25,853 nucleotides of DNA, taken from positions 1 to 25,853 of the IMG/VR virus record IMGVR_UViG_3300027788_001139; one strand, given 5' to 3'. Below, in pieces: positions 354 to 23,075 of the stretch (the first letter of the stretch is position 1; each line of letters begins with the position of its first letter). Origin of the DNA: a virus. The translations under genes were made by a program, and so were the position numbers. The notes under the pieces were generated by a model. It was not told the DNA's origin. It saw only the letters and a program-made list of their open reading frames with translations, and searched no databases.

Positions 354-2213
354 TTATAGTGCGGATAACTTTGGTGAATATATGGTTATAAGCTCATCCT
401 TTCCTTTCACTTTGATATTTCCTATCTCATCGCACTTATATCCATCTGGAAGTTGATCTCGAGTAAATGACGATATGATAGTCTTATACTCTATATACTC
501 GTGTCGAGCTGCTGTAGCTTCCAGTCTTGCAGCGAGGTTAACAGCATCTCCAATAACGGAGTAATCAAATCTGGATTCACTGCCCATATTACCAACAATA
601 CAATCTCCAGTATTGACACCAGTGCCAACATTAATGTCAGGTAAGCCGCGTTTCTTGTAAACGTCTTTAAGTTCATTTGTTTTAGCCTCTATTTCTATTG
701 CTGATTTGACTGCCATTTCAGCATGATTTTCGCACGGTAATGGCGCATTCCAGAATGCCATTATACAGTCACCCATGTATTTGTCAATAGTTCCACCATT
801 TGCTAATATGATCTTTGTCATAGCATCAAGAAATTCATTGACCAATTCTACTAATCCTTCAGGATCATCATTGTTTTTATAGTGCTCTGATATAGGAGTA
901 AACCCACATATGTCCATGAACAAGAATGTCATTTCTTTTCTATCGCCACCTAGCTTCATAAGTGACGGATCTTTGATTAACATATTAACCATGTCAGGAG
1001 ATAGATATGTACCAAACTGTCCTTTGATTTGTTGTCTTAGTTTAAACTGAATCCAAAAGTTATTAAAGCTGGCTTGAGCAAAGATTATTATATATAAACA
1101 TATAGCAAAAGTCCAATCAAGGAGATACATTGAATTCGTCCACTGGTAAGATGAGAAAGCAACAACAGATGAGGCAACAGTCGCGGCGACGCCTAGTCCG
1201 ACTACAGCAGAGAAATGATAGGCCGCTAACAGAATCAAAAGAGAACCAATCAGGATTACCACTAATTCCACCAGATCACTCCAATACGGCCTTATAATAG
1301 AATCACCAGAAAGAATCGTTGATAGCGCAGATGCTTGAATCTCGTGTGGAAATTTCAATCCTAACGGAGTTAGTATCTCCGGAACAATACCAAGAGCCGA
1401 CACTCCAATTATAACAGTCTTACCAGTTAGATCTGGTAGGGTATCAACACCTGCCTCATACCTATCATGTTCTATAGAAAAGTTAATGTATCCGGTGCCA
1501 TCTGAATTTGTTTTTGTATGTAGCTTTGGTGGAATAAATAGATCAACTACCCCTAAGTCTGGATCCGTATTAATAGTATATCCCTTTGTTTGCTTTTCAG
1601 CTCGAATGATCTCTACTGACAATGATGGGTATCTTTGATTATTGACCTGTACAACTAATGGAAACTTACGTACTAATCCGTCTACCTCAGGCGAAACATT
1701 AGATATACCTACACCCCACGCATAGTGTTCTATCACTTCTACGTTAGTAAGGATCTTATTGTATTCTTGTAAGAAATCCATAGGATCTCCAGAACCTTTC
1801 ATTGCTGTGCCTACAAATGGAGCAACATCAGTTCTTCCTCTTGGATCGGCCTTTTGTGATAAGACTACGCCAGAATCTTTTATCCATGATTCGAACGCAG
1901 CGTCTCCACCGAATCTATCGGCCTCAGGAAATGTTATTGTGAATGCTTTAATCTCAGCGTTTGCTGTAATGAGATCGGATATTATTTGAGCATAGTATTG
2001 TCTGGGTAATGGAAATTGGCCCCACTTTTCAAGGGTGCCTTCTCCTATTTCATATATTACTACATCTTTAGACTTTTGTATTGGAATTGATTTAATCTTT
2101 GAATCGAATCCCATGAGTTTGATCTGTTCTACCCATGATATGTCCGAAACTCTAAGAAACAGGCCTAATCCAATAACTATTAAAACTAACCACTTACTTG
2201 TTAAATATTTCAT
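354..2213 (-). CDS. CHASE2-domain membrane class III adenylate cyclase
   Basis: Predicted membrane enzyme that makes cAMP from ATP, with an outside-facing sensor. Residues below count from the GTG at 2231. An N-terminal membrane helix (about 14-28) is followed by a periplasmic CHASE2 domain (about 40-315), with the hallmark stretches DGLVRKFPL, YPSLSVEI and GKTVIIGVSA. Three membrane helices follow (about 318-387), then a cyclase domain (about 430-617). Catalytic residues are present: metal-binding D440 (FMDICGF) and D488 (MGDCIMAF), base-selecting K484 with S558 (the class IIIb pattern, pointing to ATP), and transition-state N565 and R569 (NLAARLEA). I chose the ATG at 2213 because AAGGG lies seven bases upstream; the GTG six codons earlier has no better site. 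It follows the curlin-FecR operon after a 154-base gap. In bacteria, FecR-domain genes often neighbour CHASE2 cyclases. A guanylate cyclase cannot be fully excluded. Confidence 0.93.
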   Translation of the reverse strand: MKYLTSKWLVLIVIGLGLFLRVSDISWVEQIKLMGFDSKIKSIPIQKSKDVVIYEIGEGTLEKWGQFPLPRQYYAQIISDLITANAEIKAFTITFPEADRFGGDAAFESWIKDSGVVLSQKADPRGRTDVAPFVGTAMKGSGDPMDFLQEYNKILTNVEVIEHYAWGVGISNVSPEVDGLVRKFPLVVQVNNQRYPSLSVEIIRAEKQTKGYTINTDPDLGVVDLFIPPKLHTKTNSDGTGYINFSIEHDRYEAGVDTLPDLTGKTVIIGVSALGIVPEILTPLGLKFPHEIQASALSTILSGDSIIRPYWSDLVELVVILIGSLLILLAAYHFSAVVGLGVAATVASSVVAFSSYQWTNSMYLLDWTFAICLYIIIFAQASFNNFWIQFKLRQQIKGQFGTYLSPDMVNMLIKDPSLMKLGGDRKEMTFLFMDICGFTPISEHYKNNDDPEGLVELVNEFLDAMTKIILANGGTIDKYMGDCIMAFWNAPLPCENHAEMAVKSAIEIEAKTNELKDVYKKRGLPDINVGTGVNTGDCIVGNMGSESRFDYSVIGDAVNLAARLEATAARHEYIEYKTIISSFTRDQLPDGYKCDEIGNIKVKGKDELITIYSPKLSAL

Positions 2214-2367
2214 ATATATGCCCTTACCCACCCTGAATGATGTGTGTGTACACCTAGCCCGTTTGAAACCACGTACGTACAGTCACCTTAAACATACACA
2301 TCTATGATCATTCCTTTAAGATAACTAGGAAAACCATACTTGTATCGTATAAATCTCCGATAACTGT
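2214..2367. other. Intergenic spacer before the cyclase gene
   Basis: This 154-base spacer is the longest gene-free stretch in the window. It contains the palindrome ACGTACGT and ends at the cyclase ribosome binding site. I find no TATAATATA-type early promoter, no TATAAATA late promoter and no hairpin followed by a U-run. The cyclase is therefore either read through from the curlin operon or has a promoter I cannot recognise. Its length in an otherwise tightly packed region suggests a regulatory role. Confidence 0.4.
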
Positions 2368-3093
2368 TCATTGACCTTGTATAACACTCACACTACAGCC
2401 ACCTGTCGTTAGGCAATTTTGAATCAAAGTATATGATTGATCTATTCCGCCTCTCTGAAATAAAGTTAAATCAGTTGGATATGTACCTCTTAAATCGATA
2501 CTGGCTGCGTGATTGGCGTTATTGCCCTTTTGTCTAACATCTAAAGTATTGCCATCATTACGTGTTGTTATGTTTAGTGTCTTTGTACCATCACCCTGTT
2601 GTCGTAACCACATAGTATTATTATCACTCCAGATTAAAGAGTTAAACACATGTCCTGAGTTACTTCCACCACCATTTTGTTGAAATCCTGATATTGAATT
2701 GTTGTTGCCGTGGATATCAATACGAGCATAATGTCCACCTGATTCTTGGCCGTCATATGAGAACGTAGTATCGGATGAATTAGTTAATGCTGCGCCTTGA
2801 CCCCATCTGATAGAATTGTTGTTTCCATCTAAGTGCCAGATTTGAATTTTATTCTCTGAGCCTGCGTTGTTCCATTGCTCAAAGTGTAATGAAACATTAG
2901 AACCATCTATATCGCACGAATTTACGTTATAACAATCAATAGTATTATCATTACCTGCTTGAGTAATGCTTAAATTAAAGTTATCTCCGGTCTGGACATT
3001 TTCCAGGATTATCTTGTTATCACCCGCTTTGGTTAATGATGATAACGACAGACTGGCCATCACCAACAGTAATAACGTTACGTTTGCCTTCAT
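2368..3093 (-). CDS. Curlin-like secreted amyloid protein B
   Basis: Predicted exported amyloid subunit of 241 residues. A signal peptide (about 1-23, ending LSSLTKA) is followed by Asn/Gln/Gly-rich strands of curlin type, for example SITQAGNDNTI (42-52), IDIHGNNNSI (125-134), DVRQKGNNAN (185-194) and the terminal SVSVIQGQ. Spacing of N, Q and G resembles CsgA/CsgB repeats, though less regular. Four cysteines form two close pairs (C54/C60 and C227/C233) flanking the repeat core, unlike E. coli CsgA. Its mature start, DNKIILENVQTGDNFNLSI, closely parallels that of the other curlin-like protein, also 241 residues. GGAG lies seven bases before the ATG, which sits 74 bases inside the end of the FecR gene, implying coupled translation. 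Whether it is nucleator or main subunit cannot be told. Confidence 0.8.
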   Translation of the reverse strand: MKANVTLLLLVMASLSLSSLTKAGDNKIILENVQTGDNFNLSITQAGNDNTIDCYNVNSCDIDGSNVSLHFEQWNNAGSENKIQIWHLDGNNNSIRWGQGAALTNSSDTTFSYDGQESGGHYARIDIHGNNNSISGFQQNGGGSNSGHVFNSLIWSDNNTMWLRQQGDGTKTLNITTRNDGNTLDVRQKGNNANHAASIDLRGTYPTDLTLFQRGGIDQSYTLIQNCLTTGGCSVSVIQGQ

Positions 3094-4180
3094 TTGTACT
3101 CTCCAATGTAGTGTTTGAGCCTATAGGTATTCTAGCAGAAATGACACCATTGACATCTCTGTAAAACCATATTTGTCCTGCACCTTGATCTATAATACTA
3201 TTGTATTGTGTTTCTTTATCAAATCCTAAGCTTGTACCGGTAAATTCATTATTACCTTGTGCTGACCTAGTTCCTCGTTTTAAAATATCTACTTCTTCAA
3301 TAGCTACCAACACGTCTTGTAAGAAATCAACGTCAAGCAGATCCATATCTAGTTCTGTAAATTCTAGATCATCATCTGCTAAATAGTCTCCTTCTAAATA
3401 GTCCGTATCAAGCTCATTAAAATCAAGGATACCACCAGCATCGTTACTTCTAGCTTGTGACTGCTCTTCTTTCTGTTCATTTATCTCTCTTGGTGGATTA
3501 ACAATAAACATATTATCAATCATATTTAAATTAATGTTATCAAGTCGAACGGGTTGAGCTGGTCTTTGGTCGTAGCTCGACACCATAGTTGCTTGATAAG
3601 CTTCTGTCAATGTAACTGTTCCTCCGGCATTGATTACTGTAATCTCGCCTGAAGGTGAACAATCACCATCAATAGTACATTCTGTTTCTGGTAGAAGTAT
3701 TACTAAACTCCTTCCAAGTTCATCAATTGATGTTGTAAAATCGGTCCCACGAACTTGTACAGTTGCGGTGGGAGTATCAATAACGATGTTTTCCTTAGGT
3801 ATCAAACCTAAGCGTCCGGTAGTGAAACGCGCAGTTCCACTTACCATCTTCATTTTCAAACCACCATCGTTAGTAGCTTTATCATAGTAATAGTCATATA
3901 TGGTTATTTCAGTATTTTCAGTTAACCTGACCTCCGACGTATCTAAAAAATCGATTTTTAATCGACCATTAGCCGTTTCGACATGATCCATCGGTTGAAT
4001 AGAAACATCAAGAGCAGTTAGCACTACTTCACCATTCTGGCGAGTAATTCCACCGCTGCCCTTGTGTTCGCTTATTCCGCCAACTTTATCAGCAAAAACT
4101 AATGATGGAACTAGTAAACTAGTCGCCAGTATCAGTTTGCTTAATGTTAACAACTGCATTTTCCGAATCAAAGTCTGCAT
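3020..4180 (-). CDS. Secreted FecR-domain protein with acidic tandem repeat
   Basis: The 386-residue protein has a signal peptide (1-30, ending LVPSLVFA) and a FecR-like domain at about 67-150 (NGRLKIDFLDTSEVRLTE, then SGTARFTTGR and TPTATVQVRGTDF). A cysteine pair C168/C174 follows. Residues 254-287 hold a 20-residue-period acidic repeat (FNELDTDYLEGDYL, then FTELDMDLLDVDFL). The C-terminal 60 residues are Asn/Gly/Ile-rich and end IIINQSG, faintly curlin-like. FecR domains classically sense or transmit signals in the periplasm; in bacteria, FecR proteins also accompany CHASE2 cyclases, as here. The gene overlaps its upstream neighbour by 62 bases and its downstream neighbour by 74. A start at codon 8 (4159) is possible; the ATG at 4180 has a weak GGA eight bases upstream. 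Confidence 0.85.
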   Translation of the reverse strand: MQTLIRKMQLLTLSKLILATSLLVPSLVFADKVGGISEHKGSGGITRQNGEVVLTALDVSIQPMDHVETANGRLKIDFLDTSEVRLTENTEITIYDYYYDKATNDGGLKMKMVSGTARFTTGRLGLIPKENIVIDTPTATVQVRGTDFTTSIDELGRSLVILLPETECTIDGDCSPSGEITVINAGGTVTLTEAYQATMVSSYDQRPAQPVRLDNINLNMIDNMFIVNPPREINEQKEEQSQARSNDAGGILDFNELDTDYLEGDYLADDDLEFTELDMDLLDVDFLQDVLVAIEEVDILKRGTRSAQGNNEFTGTSLGFDKETQYNSIIDQGAGQIWFYRDVNGVISARIPIGSNTTLESTNEGKRNVITVGDGQSVVIIINQSG

Positions 4181-4844
4181 CTATTATTCCGTAACAACTA
4201 GCGATGCTTCCACCACATGTTCCTGAGGTTTGCAATACGTCTATATCACCTGAACTACCAATCCACTCCATAGTGATTGATTGATACGCGCCATCAGACT
4301 GAGTAGTAGCAAAGTTATTCGAACTTCCTATTACATCAATGTCCCATGTTACATCGTCAGAGTCAATATTAATATCCCATACGTTGCTTCCACCAGTGAT
4401 ATCGAGATCTAAGTTCAACCTTTCGGCTGAAGCTGCATATCCCCAATCAATATCAAAAGTGTTGCTGCTACCGCCAATGGCAACATCTACAACAGATGAA
4501 TCAGCACTACCGCCATATCCTACGTTCCAATCCCATATGTTTGACGAGCCTGTTATAGCTAAATCTACATCAGTAGAGTCAAAAAGGGTTGGACCAAAGA
4601 TTTGGTTTAAGTTACCAATCATATCAATATCCATAGTTACGTTGTTACCGGTTAATATCCAATCAGATGCGCAATCACCGCCAGTAATAGAACCACATAA
4701 TTTATTACCATAACCGATTTGGTCAATAGTTAAATTAAGTGTATCACCAGATTGATCAAGCAAAATCTTGTTATCATTGGCTCCTGCGAACACAACCGCC
4801 GGACTTAATAAAAGCAAGAATAATATATAATTAAAATTTTTCAT
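4119..4844 (-). CDS. Curlin-like secreted amyloid protein A (Asp/Trp-rich repeats)
   Basis: Predicted exported amyloid-type subunit of 241 residues. A signal peptide (1-20, ending SPAVVFA) precedes DNKILLDQSGDTLNLTIDQ, which parallels curlin-like protein B. The core holds at least five repeats of the form (D/V)(L/V)-x-I-x-G-(S/G)-S-N-x-(W/F), e.g. DLAITGSSNIWDWN, DVAIGGSSNTFDID, DLDITGGSNVWDIN, DIDVIGSSNNF. They resemble curlin strand-turn units in which Gln is largely replaced by Asp and aromatics are added. Cysteine pairs C50/C58 and C210/C217 flank the core. The chosen ATG at 4844 is five bases after the csgG-like stop and has AAAGGA eight bases upstream; longer in-frame starts would lack a signal peptide at the N-terminus. 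The 3' end overlaps the FecR gene. Confidence 0.78.
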   Translation of the reverse strand: MKNFNYILFLLLLSPAVVFAGANDNKILLDQSGDTLNLTIDQIGYGNKLCGSITGGDCASDWILTGNNVTMDIDMIGNLNQIFGPTLFDSTDVDLAITGSSNIWDWNVGYGGSADSSVVDVAIGGSSNTFDIDWGYAASAERLNLDLDITGGSNVWDINIDSDDVTWDIDVIGSSNNFATTQSDGAYQSITMEWIGSSGDIDVLQTSGTCGGSIASCYGIIDADFDSENAVVNIKQTDTGD

Positions 4845-4848
4845 CCTC

Positions 4849-5721
4849 TTATTCCTTTGTTTGATGAAGATCGTTTCTTCCATGAGATCCATGGGGGTGG
4901 CGATGTCCATCTTTTATTACCCAATAGCCTTTATCGTGGCCTTGGTATATTAGTTCTAACACAGCGAGCTCAATAGTAGCTCTAAGCGACCGTGTCACTG
5001 ATTCATTTTCTGTCATACCATCTTCTATTTCTACAAGCTTGGTTGACAAATCAATGAACTTAAAAACATCATAGCCATCCGCAATACTGAGGATAGTTTT
5101 TGACGCTTGTACATTTAATAGGATTTCTCCAGTTAAAGTACTCACCGCGCGTAAGGAAATAGTTACAACATCTCGGCGATATGCTTGTTGCACACCAATT
5201 CCAAGATATCGTGCACCACGACCTCCCGTCTCGACGTTAGTATCAAATCCTATGACACCTCCCTCAAGAATAATTCCAGCGAATAATAATGGTGCTAGAC
5301 CACTATCATCTTCTTCGCCATATTGCTCTCTAGTTGTTCGAACGATTTGACGTTCTCGAGTTAAGGAATCTAACCCCACTCTTTCTACAACTCTAAACCA
5401 TGAACCATTACCTGCTGTTTTCAATGCGTCGATTAACATCGTCGCTGAACCTTGAGTAACGGCTGTGGAGAACATCGCAACGTCTCCTTTTTGTTTTCTT
5501 TGACCAGTTAAATCATTAAAGCTATATACAGCAACAACTGGCATTTTTGCCGGGGCCGGTAAATCGTAAAGTTCCTGATATGTAGGAATCTTATTAATCG
5601 TTGGTTGATCTACACATACTAAACCTTTTATGCAACCTGTTGCATCGAGGCCTTCAATTGGCACCATTTGTGCGCAACTAGATAAAAGCAATATGAAGAT
5701 ACTAGTTACAATGTATTTCAT
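4849..5721 (-). CDS. csgG: CsgG-like outer-membrane curli secretion channel lipoprotein
   Basis: CsgG forms a nonameric outer-membrane pore that exports curlin subunits. This 290-residue protein (E. coli CsgG is 277) has a lipoprotein signal with lipobox LSSC (C16). Much of the family pattern is present: LPAP (54-57), LTGQ, FSTAV-Q-SATML (84-95), SWF-VVER-GL-L-ER, GGRGARYLGIG (166-175), TGEIL and SKTILS (207-212). The constriction loop differs: Phe is kept at F84, but the Tyr and Asn of the E. coli pore ring appear replaced. Extras are a cysteine pair C30/C36 and a His-rich tail after residue 272. TAATG joins it to the csgF-like gene upstream. CsgE and CsgC homologues are not visible in the window. 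Confidence 0.95.
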   Translation of the reverse strand: MKYIVTSIFILLLSSCAQMVPIEGLDATGCIKGLVCVDQPTINKIPTYQELYDLPAPAKMPVVAVYSFNDLTGQRKQKGDVAMFSTAVTQGSATMLIDALKTAGNGSWFRVVERVGLDSLTRERQIVRTTREQYGEEDDSGLAPLLFAGIILEGGVIGFDTNVETGGRGARYLGIGVQQAYRRDVVTISLRAVSTLTGEILLNVQASKTILSIADGYDVFKFIDLSTKLVEIEDGMTENESVTRSLRATIELAVLELIYQGHDKGYWVIKDGHRHPHGSHGRNDLHQTKE

Positions 5722-6290
5722 TATCCTGTTCCAGCTCCCACAGGAATAACGATTGTAGTCTCTGAACCGTCTTCAGCAACAATTGTCATAACTATAACTT
5801 CTTCACCTTGAGTACAGGTCCATATAGAAGCATCGCATGAGGTTCTTTGATATGTAATCACATTACCTTCTAAAACAAAACTACCAAACGAAGATTCAGA
5901 GCATGTTCCTGCTGCTGCACCTTCTGCACTACATGTCGAAAACAGGCTATCTACTAACTGCTTTGATAACTGTGCATAAATCCTAGATTCTAAATTTCGC
6001 ATGAATTTAGCCATTGTAGTATTTTCTGCGTCTCTTTTAGCAGCTAATATAGCCGCTTCTATATCATCGGCAATAGCCTTTCTACGAGAAAACTCTTGGT
6101 TCTCGATTGTAAGGTAATGCGACGAAGTGCCTATGCCACTAAAAGAAGGACTCTTGAACTTATGTACAAGTTCATCTCCTTCAACTATTTGGCTGAATAA
6201 CATAAACAATATGAATATTGGCCAAAATGCGATTGAAAACCACACTAATGTCTTAATGCTCAATTCGTTTATTTTATCTAATATGTTCAT
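5721..6290 (-). CDS. csgF: CsgF-like curli assembly factor
   Basis: CsgF caps the CsgG pore and couples secretion to nucleation. This 189-residue protein has one N-terminal hydrophobic segment (about 16-33), which could be a signal peptide or an uncleaved anchor. Next comes HKFKSPSFSGIG (43-54), matching the F-x-F-x-N-P-x-F-G-G entry motif by which mature CsgF inserts into CsgG, then a helical region (63-117). The C-terminal part ends VIPVGAGTG, similar in style to the CsgF beta domain. Two cysteine pairs (C120/C130, C152/C159) are unusual for CsgF. I chose the ATG at 6290, with AAGGA seven bases upstream, over the ATG five codons earlier. It overlaps the preceding membrane-protein gene by 17 bases and the csgG-like gene by one. 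Confidence 0.85.
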   Translation of the reverse strand: MNILDKINELSIKTLVWFSIAFWPIFILFMLFSQIVEGDELVHKFKSPSFSGIGTSSHYLTIENQEFSRRKAIADDIEAAILAAKRDAENTTMAKFMRNLESRIYAQLSKQLVDSLFSTCSAEGAAAGTCSESSFGSFVLEGNVITYQRTSCDASIWTCTQGEEVIVMTIVAEDGSETTIVIPVGAGTG

Positions 6291-6558
6291 CTTTTTTTCC
6301 TTCATTATTTAAATAGGTTTGTCTCTCTCTATATTCCAACACAACCTTAATTTTTTCTTGCAACCTAATCATATCCTGATCAAGCATTCTAACCTGGTCT
6401 ATTAACCTTATAAGTCCCATATGCATTTCTTCTAGCTTGGGATCTAAATCATCATTAATAAACTTCCAAACATAATATACGAAATATGCTAAACCTACAA
6501 TAGCAACTGTAGTAAAACCGTATTCAGCTATTAAAATAGCCGGATTTAAAGCATCCAT
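6274..6558 (-). CDS. Small inner-membrane protein with coiled coil, holin-like candidate
   Basis: A 94-residue protein with one strong membrane helix (about 13-33, GFTTVAIVGLAYFVYYVWKF), then a polar helical tail rich in Leu, Asp, Arg and Glu that probably forms a coiled coil (about 41-80). It starts two bases after the stop of a second membrane-plus-helix protein. Both lie between the lysozyme and csgF-like genes. As I recall, such a pair is conserved in marine T4-like phages without known function. The position next to lysozyme makes a holin or antiholin role possible, but a membrane partner for the CsgF/CsgG-like proteins is equally open. Confidence 0.75.
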   Translation of the reverse strand: MDALNPAILIAEYGFTTVAIVGLAYFVYYVWKFINDDLDPKLEEMHMGLIRLIDQVRMLDQDMIRLQEKIKVVLEYRERQTYLNNEGKKDEHIR

Positions 6559-6559
6559 A

Positions 6560-6856
6560 TCAATCTCTTCTGACGTCTATCTTACCGTCTTCCACAAAGT
6601 TTTCGGACCTAGCTATCCTGTCAATAGGCGGTGTTAAGTCCAGCGCGCTAGAAACTAACATATCAATCTTGATAATTTCGTTGTTCATAGTCCGCGCTCT
6701 ATTTTCTAAACTCTTAGTAAACATATTAAGAGTGTTTATTTGCTCTACAACTCCAGATAACATTTGTTTTATTATAGTAAATATAAAAAAACCGGATGCT
6801 AAAGCACCAGCAATGGGTAATCCTACATCACTTATAAGACCAAAGATATCTGTCAT
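6560..6856 (-). CDS. Small membrane protein with helical tail, holin-like candidate
   Basis: A 98-residue protein. The N-terminal hydrophobic region (about 8-30, VGLPIAGALASGFFIFTI) forms one or two short membrane helices. A long amphipathic helix follows (about 35-70), then a charged end with PPIDRIAR and KIDVRRD. It begins three bases after the stop of the small virion-type gene and is followed directly by a similar membrane-plus-helix protein. It resembles conserved hypotheticals of marine T4-like phages from memory. A lysis-timing role is plausible from position only. Confidence 0.75.
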   Translation of the reverse strand: MTDIFGLISDVGLPIAGALASGFFIFTIIKQMLSGVVEQINTLNMFTKSLENRARTMNNEIIKIDMLVSSALDLTPPIDRIARSENFVEDGKIDVRRD

Positions 6857-6859
6857 ATA

Positions 6860-7105
6860 TTAGCTAGACTTTGCTATACTAACAGCTTTAAGTCCTGCTC
6901 CGCCTTCAAGTGTATCAGATGGCATCTTGCTTATAAGCTCGATAGCTTTAGATGGAATTGTCATTGTTCCAATAACTGTTGATCCAGTTTTTTGTGTCAT
7001 GACTAAGTCACCTGCAGTACTGTTATACACTCTTACTAAAGTAGCGTTATTTAATGCAGTTGCAGAAGTCAGATCTCCTTGAGCTGCCATTAATTTAATT
7101 TTCAT
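6860..7105 (-). CDS. Small virion-associated protein candidate
   Basis: An 81-residue protein beginning MKIKLMAAQGDLTSATALNN, with alternating polar and hydrophobic residues through MTQKTGSTVIGTMTIPSK, so it is probably a small beta-sandwich. There is no signal peptide or membrane helix. AGGAG precedes the ATG. Similar short proteins occur among late genes of marine T4-like phages, where they are usually taken as virion or decoration proteins. That is my inference; no catalytic motif is visible. Confidence 0.72.
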   Translation of the reverse strand: MKIKLMAAQGDLTSATALNNATLVRVYNSTAGDLVMTQKTGSTVIGTMTIPSKAIELISKMPSDTLEGGAGLKAVSIAKSS

Positions 7106-7118
7106 TGTTTATCTCCTA

Positions 7119-7586
7119 TTAGATATTTTCTAAGCGCGACATAAGTCTTTCCGCTCGGTTAGTTACTTGCTTATGCCATCTAGAATCTCTTCCTTCAACA
7201 GCAGCTTTTTTCCAATCACCACTATGCAAAGCTGCATTGTGATTTTTAAATTGTGATAATCTTGTTCTACCCATATTAAACATCATATTGGCTACAACCT
7301 GTTTTACTTCTTGAGGATATCCCTCCCAACCTTGATGTAAGATTCTACAATCGCTGAGTACTGATTGGACGTCTTGTTCAAAACATTCGATTGTTCTTTC
7401 TTCGGAAACTGCTGTTCCGACAACTTGCCCATACTCCGGATCTGTCTTAAGGACCAAGTGTCCAATTCCGAAAGTTGGGTAGCCCAAATGGTCTGTATAA
7501 ATTTCATTAATCTGACCCTCATCGATTATTAATGTTGCTCTTAATTGATCTACGTCAATATTTTCTATTTCTCTTCCCATAAACAT
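7119..7586 (-). CDS. e: T4-type lysozyme (endolysin, GH24)
   Basis: Cleaves the N-acetylmuramic acid to N-acetylglucosamine bond of peptidoglycan at lysis. The 155-residue length is close to T4 lysozyme (164). The catalytic triad is visible in IDEG (E23), YTDHLGYPTFGIGH (D32 and T38), with the same 9- and 6-residue spacings as E11, D20 and T26 in T4. NMMFNMG and WHKQVTNRAERL in the second half also match the family. No signal peptide is visible, so release would need a holin, possibly one of the two small membrane proteins downstream. A TATAAATA late promoter lies 19 bases upstream and GGAG precedes the start. A start at codon 3 (7580) is possible. Confidence 0.95.
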   Translation of the reverse strand: MFMGREIENIDVDQLRATLIIDEGQINEIYTDHLGYPTFGIGHLVLKTDPEYGQVVGTAVSEERTIECFEQDVQSVLSDCRILHQGWEGYPQEVKQVVANMMFNMGRTRLSQFKNHNAALHSGDWKKAAVEGRDSRWHKQVTNRAERLMSRLENI

Positions 7587-7604: not shown

Positions 7605-7612
7605 TATTTATA
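7605..7612 (-). promoter_or_regulatory. T4-type late promoter (TATAAATA)
   Basis: TATAAATA is read on the minus strand 19 bases before the lysozyme ATG, followed by GGAG. It matches the T4 late consensus that needs the gp55-type sigma factor. No further promoter or terminator is evident between here and about 2368, so lysozyme, the two membrane proteins and the curli-like operon may form one late transcript. That last step is inference. Confidence 0.7.
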
Positions 7613-9518: not shown

Positions 9519-9848
9519 TTAGGACGCTGAGTGGTACTCAGGCATTTGATAGGAAAGAGTTAATTCTTCACCAGGTGTTAGATCTCGCAATGTTTCAATT
9601 GTAAAGAATCTGTCACCATGATCGTTAATTCCTTCGTGATTAACACAACTTGGTGTGTCACTATGATTGGGGAATCCCCCTAATGGAGTTCTTATCCAAG
9701 AATCATGATATAAAATTCTTATGATTCCTAAATCTGTTCCTGCAGGGATATTGGTCTTTGCAAATAAGCCTAGTCCGTCGATGTCGCTTTCTTTAACGGT
9801 AACTGTAGGTGGCAATGGCCTCCAAGTGTTTCCAAAATTAATCGTCAT
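9519..9848 (-). CDS. SET-domain protein (putative lysine methyltransferase)
   Basis: SET domains transfer methyl groups from S-adenosylmethionine to protein lysines. This 109-residue protein is a minimal SET fold: GLGLFA (25-30), a cofactor-contacting NHS motif (61-63) in NHSDTPSCVNHE, and a C-terminal GEELTLSY with the expected catalytic Tyr at 100. I chose the ATG at 9848 because AAAGGG lies eight bases upstream; the GTG three codons earlier overlaps that site. It overlaps a 37-residue gene by 11 bases. It is shorter than cellular SET enzymes, lacking pre- and post-SET parts, as in other phage and bacterial versions. The target is unknown. Confidence 0.8.
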   Translation of the reverse strand: MTINFGNTWRPLPPTVTVKESDIDGLGLFAKTNIPAGTDLGIIRILYHDSWIRTPLGGFPNHSDTPSCVNHEGINDHGDRFFTIETLRDLTPGEELTLSYQMPEYHSAS

Positions 9849-9951
9849 CTTTTTCACCCTTTATTTGTTTTAGTATTTCTATTAAATCTTCAATTGTTTC
9901 TACATCTGTTTGATTTTCTGTGTCTATTTCGACATTTATATTTATTTTCAT
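9838..9951 (-). CDS. 37 aa acidic protein
   Basis: ATG at 9951 opens a 37-residue frame, MKININVEIDTENQTDVET, continuing as IEDLIEILKQIKGEKDDD. An N-terminal beta strand followed by an amphipathic helix looks protein-like. The frame fills the gap between the Fe-S carrier gene and the SET gene and overlaps the SET start by 11 bases, matching local packing. No good ribosome binding site is seen (the upstream bases are AAATAAATAAAT), so confidence is moderate. Its function is unknown. Confidence 0.5.
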   Translation of the reverse strand: MKININVEIDTENQTDVETIEDLIEILKQIKGEKDDD

Positions 9952-9953
9952 AT

Positions 9954-10283
9954 TTATTTATTTACATAAAAGCTTTCGCCACAACCACATTCATCACTTA
10001 CATTGGGGTTTACAAACTCAAAGCCTTCATTTAATCCTTTTTTTACGTATTCTAATCTTGTACCGGTCAAGTGTATCATACTCTTGACGTCGACAAATAT
10101 TGATACGGTATCATCACAGCAAAGAACAACATTATCGTCGTCATTTGCCTTATAACAAAATTCTAATACATATGCCAATCCGCTGCACCCGCTTGAGCGA
10201 ACACCCATTCTGACACCAACGGTTTTCTCAGGAAATACTACTGATCTTAATCGAAGTTCTGCTGACTCGGATACTGTGATCAT
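9954..10283 (-). CDS. A-type iron-sulfur cluster carrier (IscA/ErpA/SufA family)
   Basis: A-type carriers bind and hand on Fe-S clusters or iron to target enzymes. This 109-residue protein has the family layout: MITVSESAELRLRS, then SSGCSGLAYVLEF with C33, FVDVKSMIHLTGTRLEYV, and the paired ligands in ECGCGESF (C99 and C101). The N-x-N before them is also typical (FVNPNVSDECGCG). The chosen ATG at 10283 overlaps the upstream TGA as ATGA; the longer form would start inside the previous gene. Which of IscA, SufA or ErpA it most resembles cannot be decided here. Extra cysteines at 43, 55 and 56 are noted. Confidence 0.93.
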   Translation of the reverse strand: MITVSESAELRLRSVVFPEKTVGVRMGVRSSGCSGLAYVLEFCYKANDDDNVVLCCDDTVSIFVDVKSMIHLTGTRLEYVKKGLNEGFEFVNPNVSDECGCGESFYVNK

Positions 10284-10459
10284 AGGCCAAATAAGCCCCA
10301 ACCATGATTTGCTATAGCGTTAAGTATAATTGCAATACAAGTTGTCATGTGAGTAAACCACCATACGGTTCTAATTCCCGCAATTGTATTTGCTTGTTTA
10401 TCCGTCTCACCAACTTTTTCACCCAGACTCTTGGCCCAGATTCTCCACCATTTCTTCAT
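10280..10459 (-). CDS. Small single-span membrane protein (first of a related pair)
   Basis: A 59-residue protein beginning MKKWWRIWAKSLGEKVGETD, followed by IRTVWWFTH and a membrane helix (about 37-52, MTTCIAIILNAIA). It shares W-x-IW-x-x-(S/A)LG and an I-x-x-IRT segment with the gene just upstream, so the two look like diverged duplicates. The ATG at 10459 overlaps the previous stop as ATGA, which decides the start over the ATG at 10468. I recall it as a conserved hypothetical of marine T4-like phages. Its role is unknown. Confidence 0.75.
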   Translation of the reverse strand: MKKWWRIWAKSLGEKVGETDKQANTIAGIRTVWWFTHMTTCIAIILNAIANHGWGLFGL

Positions 10460-21444: not shown

Positions 21445-22203
21445 TTACTTCTCCTTAGATAGGGTCTTTAACGCTTGAACATAATTTGGCATACCGTGAT
21501 CTACAACTCCATCAAAGAATTTAAATCTTTTCCATGAGTTAACGATACCATAAAATGTATCAGCCCATGTAGGCTTAAGTGCCTTTAAACCAAATCTGTC
21601 AAAGTAAATCATAGTACCGTGATGTCTAAATCCTAACCAAGCTGGTGGGATTCTACATACGATATCATTGTTATTCATAAATCTGTAGTGATCGCATTTG
21701 ATATTTTTGATGAAGTGTTTTCCACCAACTCTTGGAGATCCAAATGTGAAGAGCTCAGTAGGCGGATATCGCGTGGCACTAATTGTAGCCATCGCAGCAC
21801 CGAGACTATGCCCAGTGAAATATACATCTTTGCGAACCTTTAGTTGGTCATTATGTTCTAGTTCTTTTACAATGTCCATCCAGACATCATCTACTTCTTG
21901 TTGGAAACCGCCGTGGACTTTACCACCTGCTTTGGCTGTATTTTTAACAACCTTTAAATCTGCAAGTACGTCATTCAGCTTGGAAGGTTCGGTTCCTCTA
22001 AAAGCAAACCATAGATCATTTCTATCTTTTGCAATGAGTACTTCTGCACCATCCCTACTAATAATTTTACCTGAAGCAAACCCTAGTTTTTTACATGCGG
22101 TATCTGCTGGTTTTGGATTCATATATGCGATAGCCGAAAGTTTGGCAGCTACTTGTGCCCTCTCCCATACAGTCATTGTTTCTTTCATTCTACTTGTCGC
22201 CAT
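21445..22203 (-). CDS. Class 3 lipase-like alpha/beta hydrolase
   Basis: The 252-residue protein is of lipase class 3 type. It has WFAFRGTEPSKL (oxyanion-hole region, 65-76), nucleophile S133 in VYFTGHSLGAAMAT, then LFTFGSPRVGG, catalytic Asp D180 in NNNDIVCRIPP and His H195 in FRHHGTMIYF. Family members cleave acyl esters of lipids. No signal peptide is visible, so the enzyme would act on the inner membrane from inside or after lysis. AGG lies nine bases before the ATG at 22203, and the start overlaps the lipoprotein gene by 14 bases. With that neighbour, a role in membrane breakdown or lipid remodelling during infection is plausible. Confidence 0.9.
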   Translation of the reverse strand: MATSRMKETMTVWERAQVAAKLSAIAYMNPKPADTACKKLGFASGKIISRDGAEVLIAKDRNDLWFAFRGTEPSKLNDVLADLKVVKNTAKAGGKVHGGFQQEVDDVWMDIVKELEHNDQLKVRKDVYFTGHSLGAAMATISATRYPPTELFTFGSPRVGGKHFIKNIKCDHYRFMNNNDIVCRIPPAWLGFRHHGTMIYFDRFGLKALKPTWADTFYGIVNSWKRFKFFDGVVDHGMPNYVQALKTLSKEK

Positions 22204-22741
22204 CTTTTTTCACCTCAATTGCTGCACCTACTGCAGGCTTATCTTTTATTGTTACATTTCTATAGTATATTACTACTTCTCCTAATTGCTTGATATACCT
22301 TTTTAGTTCTTGCATATCTTCTGCCATTACTTTATAATCACCTATAGTTGTGGCAACGAAAACAATCTCTCCGTTATTTTGTTCTTTCATCTCATCCATG
22401 AACCTATCTAAATAGGTATAACCAATAGGCCATTCAGGATTCTCTGTATCTTCTTTAGCGCATGCTTTAGGTCTAAATGTCTCATGAGTGCCATCGTCTT
22501 TTACAATGTGTTCACCCTTCTCATTTAGTTTCATCTGCTTTGCGCAAGGGTTAGCAATCTTTGCTTCGGATACAACATACCAATTAGGAGCAGTTAAGTC
22601 CACAGGCCTTGGAAGATCTGGTTGCATAATTTCTATTTCAACCGGCTTAGAGATAATCTCTATTTCCTTAGTTCCTAGTAAAGAACAACCACTAGTTAGT
22701 GCTAGTAGTATCGGTAATACTGTATAATTTCTTAGTATCAT
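22190..22741 (-). CDS. Lipoprotein, candidate outer-membrane spanin
   Basis: The 183-residue protein has a lipoprotein signal, MILRNYTVLPILLALTSGC, with lipobox cysteine C19. The mature part is Pro-rich at first (KPVEIEIMQPDLPRPVDL) and later mixed alpha/beta (GEIVFVATTIGDYKVMAEDM). A strong GAGGGA seven bases before the ATG lies inside the upstream coiled-coil gene, which it overlaps by 50 bases in another frame. That arrangement, inner-membrane coiled coil then overlapping lipoprotein, is typical of Rz/Rz1 spanin pairs that fuse the two membranes at lysis. It is longer than most outer spanins, so the spanin call is tentative. Confidence 0.8.
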   Translation of the reverse strand: MILRNYTVLPILLALTSGCSLLGTKEIEIISKPVEIEIMQPDLPRPVDLTAPNWYVVSEAKIANPCAKQMKLNEKGEHIVKDDGTHETFRPKACAKEDTENPEWPIGYTYLDRFMDEMKEQNNGEIVFVATTIGDYKVMAEDMQELKRYIKQLGEVVIYYRNVTIKDKPAVGAAIEVKKDGDK

Positions 22742-23075
22742 CTTCTAATCCCTCCATCACGTCTTGACTGCCTTTATTAAATCTACTTTCCATCAGTCCT
22801 GGCTTTTTAATTGCCAGCATATCTAAATTGTGTCTTGCGAATATCGATAAATATTCCGCCTTTTCAGCTTCAATCGCTGCGTTTACTCTACCCATATTAA
22901 GTAAAGCCTGTCCTTGTTTTTCAAAGGATTCTTTCATCGCCTCGAAAGCAGCTTGTTGTTCAGCTACCGCACTTTCAAGTGCTGCATTATTAGATACTAG
23001 TGTTTGGTTTTCCTGGTGTAACCAGTAACCACCTAGGCCTAGTATCAATATTATTCCTATCAATAATTGATTCAT
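22692..23075 (-). CDS. Membrane-anchored coiled-coil protein, candidate inner-membrane spanin
   Basis: The 127-residue protein has an N-terminal membrane helix (about 4-19, LLIGIILILGLGGYWL) and a long Ala/Glu/Gln-rich coiled coil (about 22-75). FARHNLDMLAIKKPGLMESRFNKG follows, a segment I recall from phage Rz-like proteins. Topology and length match an inner-membrane spanin. The end of the gene overlaps the start of a lipoprotein gene, as in Rz/Rz1 pairs. It is joined to the preceding gene by TAATG. Confidence 0.8.
   Translation of the reverse strand: MNQLLIGIILILGLGGYWLHQENQTLVSNNAALESAVAEQQAAFEAMKESFEKQGQALLNMGRVNAAIEAEKAEYLSIFARHNLDMLAIKKPGLMESRFNKGSQDVMEGLEDDTKKLYSITDTTSTN

Follow-up and report, generated by a model that had tools for sequence, protein, structure and literature searches.

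Why should a T4-like phage carry the genes of an extracellular amyloid system, and why should these be joined to an envelope protein and a nucleotide cyclase? The question is raised by a 25,853-base virus record (IMG/VR IMGVR_UViG_3300027788_001139; its whole length is called the window here), which encodes a curli-like secretion cassette together with an exported FecR-domain protein and a CHASE2-adenylate cyclase. The cassette is real, conserved and already published in outline. The best explanation, to which about an even chance is given, is that a captured curli operon is run late in infection, with FecR coupling the state of the fibre or of secretion to the CHASE2-cyclase and with a late surface coat as the benefit. 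At the level of sequence, the gene order, the homologies and a late promoter are demonstrated, as are purifying selection, the conservation of catalytic residues and a motif in the FecR tail; the formation of fibres, the sensing and the benefit of the cassette are unproven.

A curli secretion cassette in a phage genome

Six intact open reading frames, all on the minus strand, span 354-6305 of the window, which upholds the six-gene cassette of the original prediction, made from the nucleotide letters alone; Pfam supports the assignments of CsgF, CsgG, FecR and the CHASE2-cyclase. The cassette and the features upstream of it are as follows.

354..2231, minus strand: CHASE2 sensor and class III adenylate cyclase in the same protein (Pfam CHASE2 2.6e-30, Guanylate_cyc 2.5e-19)
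2368..3093, minus strand: curlin-like B, paralogue of curlin-like A
3020..4180, minus strand: exported FecR-domain protein (Pfam FecR 2.9e-12) with a signal peptide
4119..4910, minus strand: curlin-like A, with N-x-I...Q-x-G repeats; likely start at about 4844
4849..5721, minus strand: CsgG outer-membrane secretion pore lipoprotein (Pfam CsgG 5.5e-50), with an invariant lipobox Cys16
5721..6305, minus strand: CsgF (Pfam CsgF 1.3e-7, over the cut-off)
6274..6558, minus strand: tmB, 94 amino acids, paralogue of tmA (phrog_18771), overlapping csgF by 32 bases
6560..6856, minus strand: tmA, 98 amino acids, first constant gene of the cassette, with one N-terminal membrane segment and a coiled-coil (phrog_18771)
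6860..7105, minus strand: small protein of 81 amino acids between lysozyme and cassette (phrog_19805 3.2e-11)
7119..7586, minus strand: phage lysozyme of endolysin or baseplate type (Pfam PF00959 7.8e-8; phrog_13211 1.3e-19)
7605..7612, minus strand: T4-type late promoter box TATAAATA, separated from the lysozyme ATG by 18 bases

Taken as longest open reading frames, successive genes from csgF to curlin B overlap by 1, 62, 62 and 74 bases, and a 136-base gap separates curlin B from the cyclase. If curlin A is started at its signal peptide (about 4844), its junction with csgG becomes a gap of a few bases, which matches the small gap predicted there.

CsgF keeps an N-terminal FxxPxF(S)G segment in which F50, P53, F55 and G57 are invariant among 12 aligned sequences, and this segment lines up with the part of Escherichia coli CsgF that is bound in the CsgG pore (weak colinear match to the CsgF of 6l7a, E 0.31). 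The two curlins are homologous to each other by shared profile (hhalign probability 99%, E 3.4e-19), and both combine signal-peptide-like N-termini with the repeats listed above. Curlin A has a weak match to the NCBIfam CsgA model (E 0.015) and none to PDB sequences, and its AlphaFold2 model is a beta-solenoid (pLDDT 78.5, pTM 0.72) with strand pairs every ~26 residues. Homologues of the curlins are annotated as curlin-associated in GenBank.

Conservation across viruses

Searches by tblastn with the cyclase and CsgG led to Pelagibacter phage HTVC008M and to the Melnitz methylophages, the records of which display the identical six-gene order, and the same order is found in more than 100 viral contigs. 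An assembly artefact is ruled out by this recurrence in cultured phages and contigs: the cassette is not peculiar to one contig with a junction between 6290 and 7119, and curli, FecR and CHASE2-cyclase genes do co-occur on T4-like phage genomes.

A scan of IMG/VR with CsgG yielded 59 loci, and the addition of loci found from tmA/tmB and of viral contigs from bacterial bins raised this to 126 distinct CsgG loci. The genes tmA, tmB and csgF are present in all 116 loci having at least 2.5 kb upstream of csgG, while both curlins, FecR and the cyclase are present in all 23 having at least 7.5 kb downstream; one locus (L201) shows no cyclase within about 7 kb. As these loci were found by similarity to the cassette, reverse searches were started from tmA/tmB. 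In the first, 76 of 78 new loci have csgF/csgG and the remaining two end next to the tm genes; in the second, 52 of 54 more distant loci are linked to the cassette and one ends next to the tm genes. The remaining one, a rearranged locus (L280), carries the cassette genes on the other strand relative to the tm pair. Because searches from the tm genes lead back to the cassette, the two paralogous membrane/coiled-coil genes of ~95 amino acids, previously set apart as holin-like, are on this sequence evidence members of it, an assignment that is new here. As an exception, the phage-like contig L079 has csgF without a tm pair upstream.

Other parts of the cassette vary by lineage. One viral lineage (L277-L291) has a single curlin, curlin B being absent, with FecR directly before the cyclase. 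The small protein of 81 amino acids is present in 29 of 62 loci. All eight genes are under purifying selection, with median dN/dS of 0.10-0.27.

Phage cassettes with tmA/tmB have also been binned into metagenome-assembled genomes (MAGs) named Sphingobacteriales, Synechococcus, Flavobacteriales, Planctomycetaceae and others (L063-L069, L071, L073, L077, L091), a contamination trap for surveys of curli. A 1.5-kb 'Salmonella phage' record encoding CsgG (OR851715.1) is probably host DNA.

Origin of the cassette

A bacterial counterpart occurs in L070, a 705-kb marine alphaproteobacterial contig named Hyphomonas sp. TMED17. Its gene order is csgF, csgG, a curlin of 504 amino acids, FecR and CHASE2-cyclase, with no tm genes and with cellular genes on both sides; the composition of the cassette resembles that of its flanks, and its FecR directly before the cyclase recalls the single-curlin viral lineage. 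In view of this five-gene operon, FecR and the cyclase were probably captured together with curli, and the operon suggests that tmA and tmB were added in phages. Operons of this type are rare, since most of the bacterial curli loci fetched (from Methylobacterium, Erythrobacter, Rhizobium and others) contain no FecR or cyclase recognizable by the phage profiles within the fetched flanks. Among 299 genomes of the order to which L070 belongs, no second cyclase as close was found.

A late operon beside a lysozyme gene

The expression of the cassette appears to be devoted to the end of infection. Of 123 distinct loci, 74 have the sequence TATAAATA in the 150 bases upstream of tmA, whereas dinucleotide shuffles give 2.0 and the opposite strand gives 3; the same box was not found before tmB, curlin A or FecR, and it precedes CsgG in 1 of 153. 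In a largely different further set, it stands before tmA in 20 of 47 cases and also before some of the cyclase genes (9 of 32) and csgF genes (5 of 40). Relatives carry the box directly before tmA, and the window carries it before the lysozyme instead. Because the box at 7605-7612 precedes the lysozyme start, the lysozyme, the small protein, tmA, tmB, csgF and the rest of the cassette probably form one late transcript in the window. Judged by its promoter, the cassette is a T4-type late operon, and this late timing appears to be new with respect to earlier reports.

Late transcription next to a lysozyme invites an alternative in which the cassette is a module for lysis or envelope perforation. 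Here tmA and tmB would be holin-like, CsgG, together with CsgF, would form an outer-membrane pore that times or completes lysis, and the curlins and FecR would regulate or plug it. Control of lysis has been proposed for the Melnitz curli genes, including a pinholin-like role of CsgG (Buchholz et al., 2022; PMC9004378), and two small membrane and coiled-coil proteins do head the operon. The supposed holin-like genes prove to be a paralogous pair, both phrog_18771; their topology alone is compatible with holins, and they have no Pfam holin match. The lysozyme itself was correctly predicted and shares the transcript of the window, but its adjacency is not conserved: only 35 of 82 loci have it in the upstream 5 kb, which makes it a lineage-specific neighbour, not a constant member. 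Besides this endolysin-type lysozyme, the phage encodes an overlapping Rz-like spanin pair at 22190-23075 (phrog_812 6.5e-8, phrog_739 1.4e-13), so that canonical lysis genes are present outside the cassette. Two curlins under purifying selection and the conserved pore-binding segment of CsgF point instead to secretion. A purpose in lysis timing, one of several raised by the original prediction, is consequently possible but not favoured, and the lysis module as a whole is considered unlikely.

The promoter bears equally on a proposed barrier to superinfection, by which a coat of fibres or the CsgG pore would shut competing phages out of the infected cell. Surface fibres can block phage access, as has been proposed (PMC9599517). 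The wide distribution of the cassette and its purifying selection would be in keeping with such a benefit. The late promoter, however, would delay the protection beyond the stage of infection in which exclusion systems usually work; the T4 exclusion genes imm and sp are early. Late transcription thus fits roles at lysis or on the surface better than the blocking of superinfection that had been envisaged, and this explanation is quite doubtful.

The remainder of the window is also T4-like, encoding a T4 RNase H-like exonuclease, PhoH and ribonucleotide reductase. A class 3 lipase (21445-22203, Pfam 1.6e-21) adjoins the spanin genes, and a SET-domain protein (9519-9857) and an IscA-like Fe-S carrier protein (9954-10301) are host-type genes in this T4-like phage.

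FecR as a partner of CHASE2

The FecR protein of the cassette has a signal peptide followed by the FecR domain, with no anti-sigma part, and no sigma gene is present in the cassette. In the window, FecR and the CHASE2-cyclase share one operon. In about 11 of 23 non-curli bacterial loci, FecR and CHASE2 are no more than 3 kb apart, in a tabulation of selected genomes made for this study; about 0.1 such loci would be expected, by our own estimate from the few FecR genes in a multi-megabase genome. CHASE2 is present in 114 of 240 genomes of the class to which L070 belongs. FecR is likewise next to CHASE2 in a Campylobacterota cyclic AMP (cAMP) cluster (PMC9239204), and the Burkholderia biofilm operon BiofilmReg pairs the two as well (PMC5192318). 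Because the pairing recurs in bacteria without curli and in the literature, FecR is best read as the periplasmic partner of CHASE2 in a sensor pair that is general among bacteria, and not as a regulator of iron.

A complete 1.21-Mb genome of the Pelagibacter order (L222, 9549-14419) encodes FecR, a CHASE2-phosphatase protein and an outer-membrane-like protein. The output domain of this CHASE2 protein is read here as a SpoIIE-type phosphatase, and the locus represents a FecR-CHASE2 system in a streamlined bacterium.

What the phage FecR might sense is hinted at by its C-terminus. The AlphaFold2 model consists of a signal helix, the FecR domain (residues 30-224), a disordered acidic linker (residues 226-310, pLDDT below 50) and, at the C-terminus, a domain of six strands that ends in a curlin-like strand, IxIxQxG. 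Residues 62-224 match the periplasmic signalling domain of PupR (6ovk, Z 15.5). A second match, that of residues 30-109, is to the entry 5ix9, which bears the title 'Cell surface anchoring domain' (Z 11.4, rmsd 1.1, 68 residues). Of 101 distinct viral FecR tails, 100 carry the tail motif, defined as [ILVFT]x[ILV]xQ within the last ten residues, compared with 3.9 in shuffle; 60/124 and 137/207 curlin tails carry it too. It is found in no CsgG, cyclase or tm tails and in 1 of 468 background open reading frames, and non-curli bacterial FecR tails lack a stricter form of it. A first, stricter motif missed divergent lineages (6/26) and was relaxed after the tails had been seen, hence the background controls. 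As the FecR C-terminus and curlin show no homology by hhalign, only a short motif is claimed; for this reason, and since the motif was relaxed after the data had been seen, the link to curlin is inferred. The tail motif appears to be a new clue to the function of the cassette.

A more specific and tentative proposal is that FecR is a tethered reader of the fibre. Its FecR domain would dock on CHASE2 in the periplasm, and the linker and tail strand would engage nascent curlin inside the CsgG pore or at it, giving an outside-in sensor that turns fibre assembly or tension into a late cyclic-nucleotide output. If so, the close structural match to 5ix9 suggests that the FecR domain would also serve as a periplasmic plug.

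The cyclase that would receive such a signal appears catalytically equipped. The window protein has all five catalytic residues (D440, K484, D488, N565 and R569), of which D440, K484, D488 and R569 are conserved in 98/98 cyclase homologues and N565 in 82/98. The other 16 carry Ser in place of the transition-state Asn565, including those of Melnitz and of a further locus (L003, 8326-10377), and the activity of this sublineage may be reduced.

How the cassette may work

In the favoured account, a type VIII (curli) operon would have been taken from a donor resembling a marine alphaproteobacterium and would be expressed late by the phage, with tmA and tmB as inner-membrane factors added by the phage. 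Sec would carry curlins A and B across the inner membrane, CsgG-CsgF would let them out, and towards the end of infection they would assemble into amyloid-type fibres on the infected cell. Remaining in the periplasm, FecR would partner the CHASE2 sensor through its folded domain and, through an acidic, flexible linker with a curlin-like end, would touch curlin, the pore of secretion or the root of the fibre, so that the state of the fibre or of secretion would alter CHASE2 and the cyclase. The most likely benefit would be a late surface coat that holds neighbouring cells, debris and virions together, with the cyclase reporting that assembly is under way.

Several results weigh against this account. 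Neither curlin matches a Pfam curlin model, and a Foldseek search with the curlin A model gave no confident PDB match (best E 0.035, to beta-solenoid-like folds only). No CsgE was found, and the FecR tail shares no detectable homology with curlin. No fibre has been seen, and Melnitz showed no clumping by cytometry or transmission electron microscopy (PMC9004378). A search with nrdA gave no informative host. Finally, a phage-encoded cyclic nucleotide (cNMP) receptor was sought in the window and in four cassette phages (HTVC008M, Melnitz and two relatives of 130 kb; lengths 130-147 kb), and no cNMP-binding domain was found; of 147 genomes from the Pelagibacter order, just 10 encode one. Because the phages have none and SAR11 almost none, cAMP would be an output without a known reader. 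The original prediction is supported in part: the union of curli secretion, FecR and a CHASE2-cyclase stands, and the picture of a self-contained system signalling through cAMP lacks support in the form in which it was put.

The same scarcity of readers makes a signal hard to explain in a further alternative, which is very unlikely. Here the cyclase itself would act on the late cell, by making cAMP or draining ATP, and the curli part would be only its sensor input. The near-complete retention of its catalytic residues favours this idea, as does Sinorhizobium meliloti CyaD1, which gives constitutive cAMP when its CHASE2 is deleted (PMC5498481). The least probable alternative is the suggestion that CsgG-F admits vitamins, siderophore-bound iron or other small molecules to the periplasm while FecR senses iron (PMC7029224; PMC9599517), which would suit the missing CsgE gate, but FecR has a signal peptide and neither an anti-sigma part nor a sigma partner, it pairs with CHASE2 in many curli-free bacteria, and two conserved curlins would be left unexplained.

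Should the cassette work as a late curli operon, viruses of very abundant marine bacteria would supply their hosts, as infection ends, with an extracellular amyloid system that the hosts lack, and aggregation, virion spread and carbon export could change. A testable idea of how cells might sense curli secretion comes from the tail of FecR and from the FecR-CHASE2 pairs of bacteria, and with cNMP-binding domains so scarce in SAR11, the cAMP step becomes a question that can be put directly to the test.

Comparison with known systems

The cassette shares CsgG, CsgF and curlin-type substrates with the curli system of E. coli (CsgA-G). It exceeds that system by FecR, the CHASE2-cyclase and tmA/tmB, and no CsgC, CsgD or CsgE was found in it.

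In phages, csgF and csgG were first reported, together with unknown genes, by Zaragoza-Solas et al. (2020; PMC7029224). The earlier view that only this pair had been reported must be rejected: HTVC008M already carried the cassette, and the full order of csgF, csgG, csgA/B, FecR, csgA/B and adenylate cyclase was published for pelagi-podo- and myoviruses, with expression in the ocean and with superinfection, capture of siblings and uptake as possible roles (Wittmers et al., 2022; PMC9599517). This type VIII secretion module has the same genes in the same order, in marine phages that include T4-like ones. The podovirus form has a 'histidine kinase' before csgF, whereas the window has two paralogues of ~95 amino acids there, in which Pfam, PHROGs and NCBIfam show no kinase domain. 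That the podovirus kinase corresponds to tmA/tmB is an idea resting only on position and shortness, and a histidine kinase does not define the myovirus form. Wittmers et al. describe adenylate cyclase and FecR as absent from bacterial type VIII operons, to which L070 is a bacterial counter-example; no statement on a late operon or a FecR tail motif was found in that paper.

The Melnitz curli genes have the same order, including homologues of tmA/tmB (PMC9004378). Buchholz et al. treat CsgA/B as missing, whereas the Melnitz record annotates two curlin-repeat proteins; they also suggest that CsgF may no longer bind CsgG, whereas the CsgF of relatives keeps the N-terminal motif.

With the FecI-FecR signalling of ferric citrate, the phage protein shares the FecR domain and a fold like the periplasmic signalling domain of PupR. 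It differs in that a signal peptide replaces the cytoplasmic anti-sigma part, and neither a sigma factor nor an iron receptor accompanies it. Closer are the bacterial operons in which a FecR gene adjoins a CHASE2 sensor gene (PMC9239204; PMC5192318). In Campylobacterota and Burkholderia, these operons include phosphodiesterase/TPR proteins or a response regulator and no curli, whereas the phage FecR bears a curlin-like tail.

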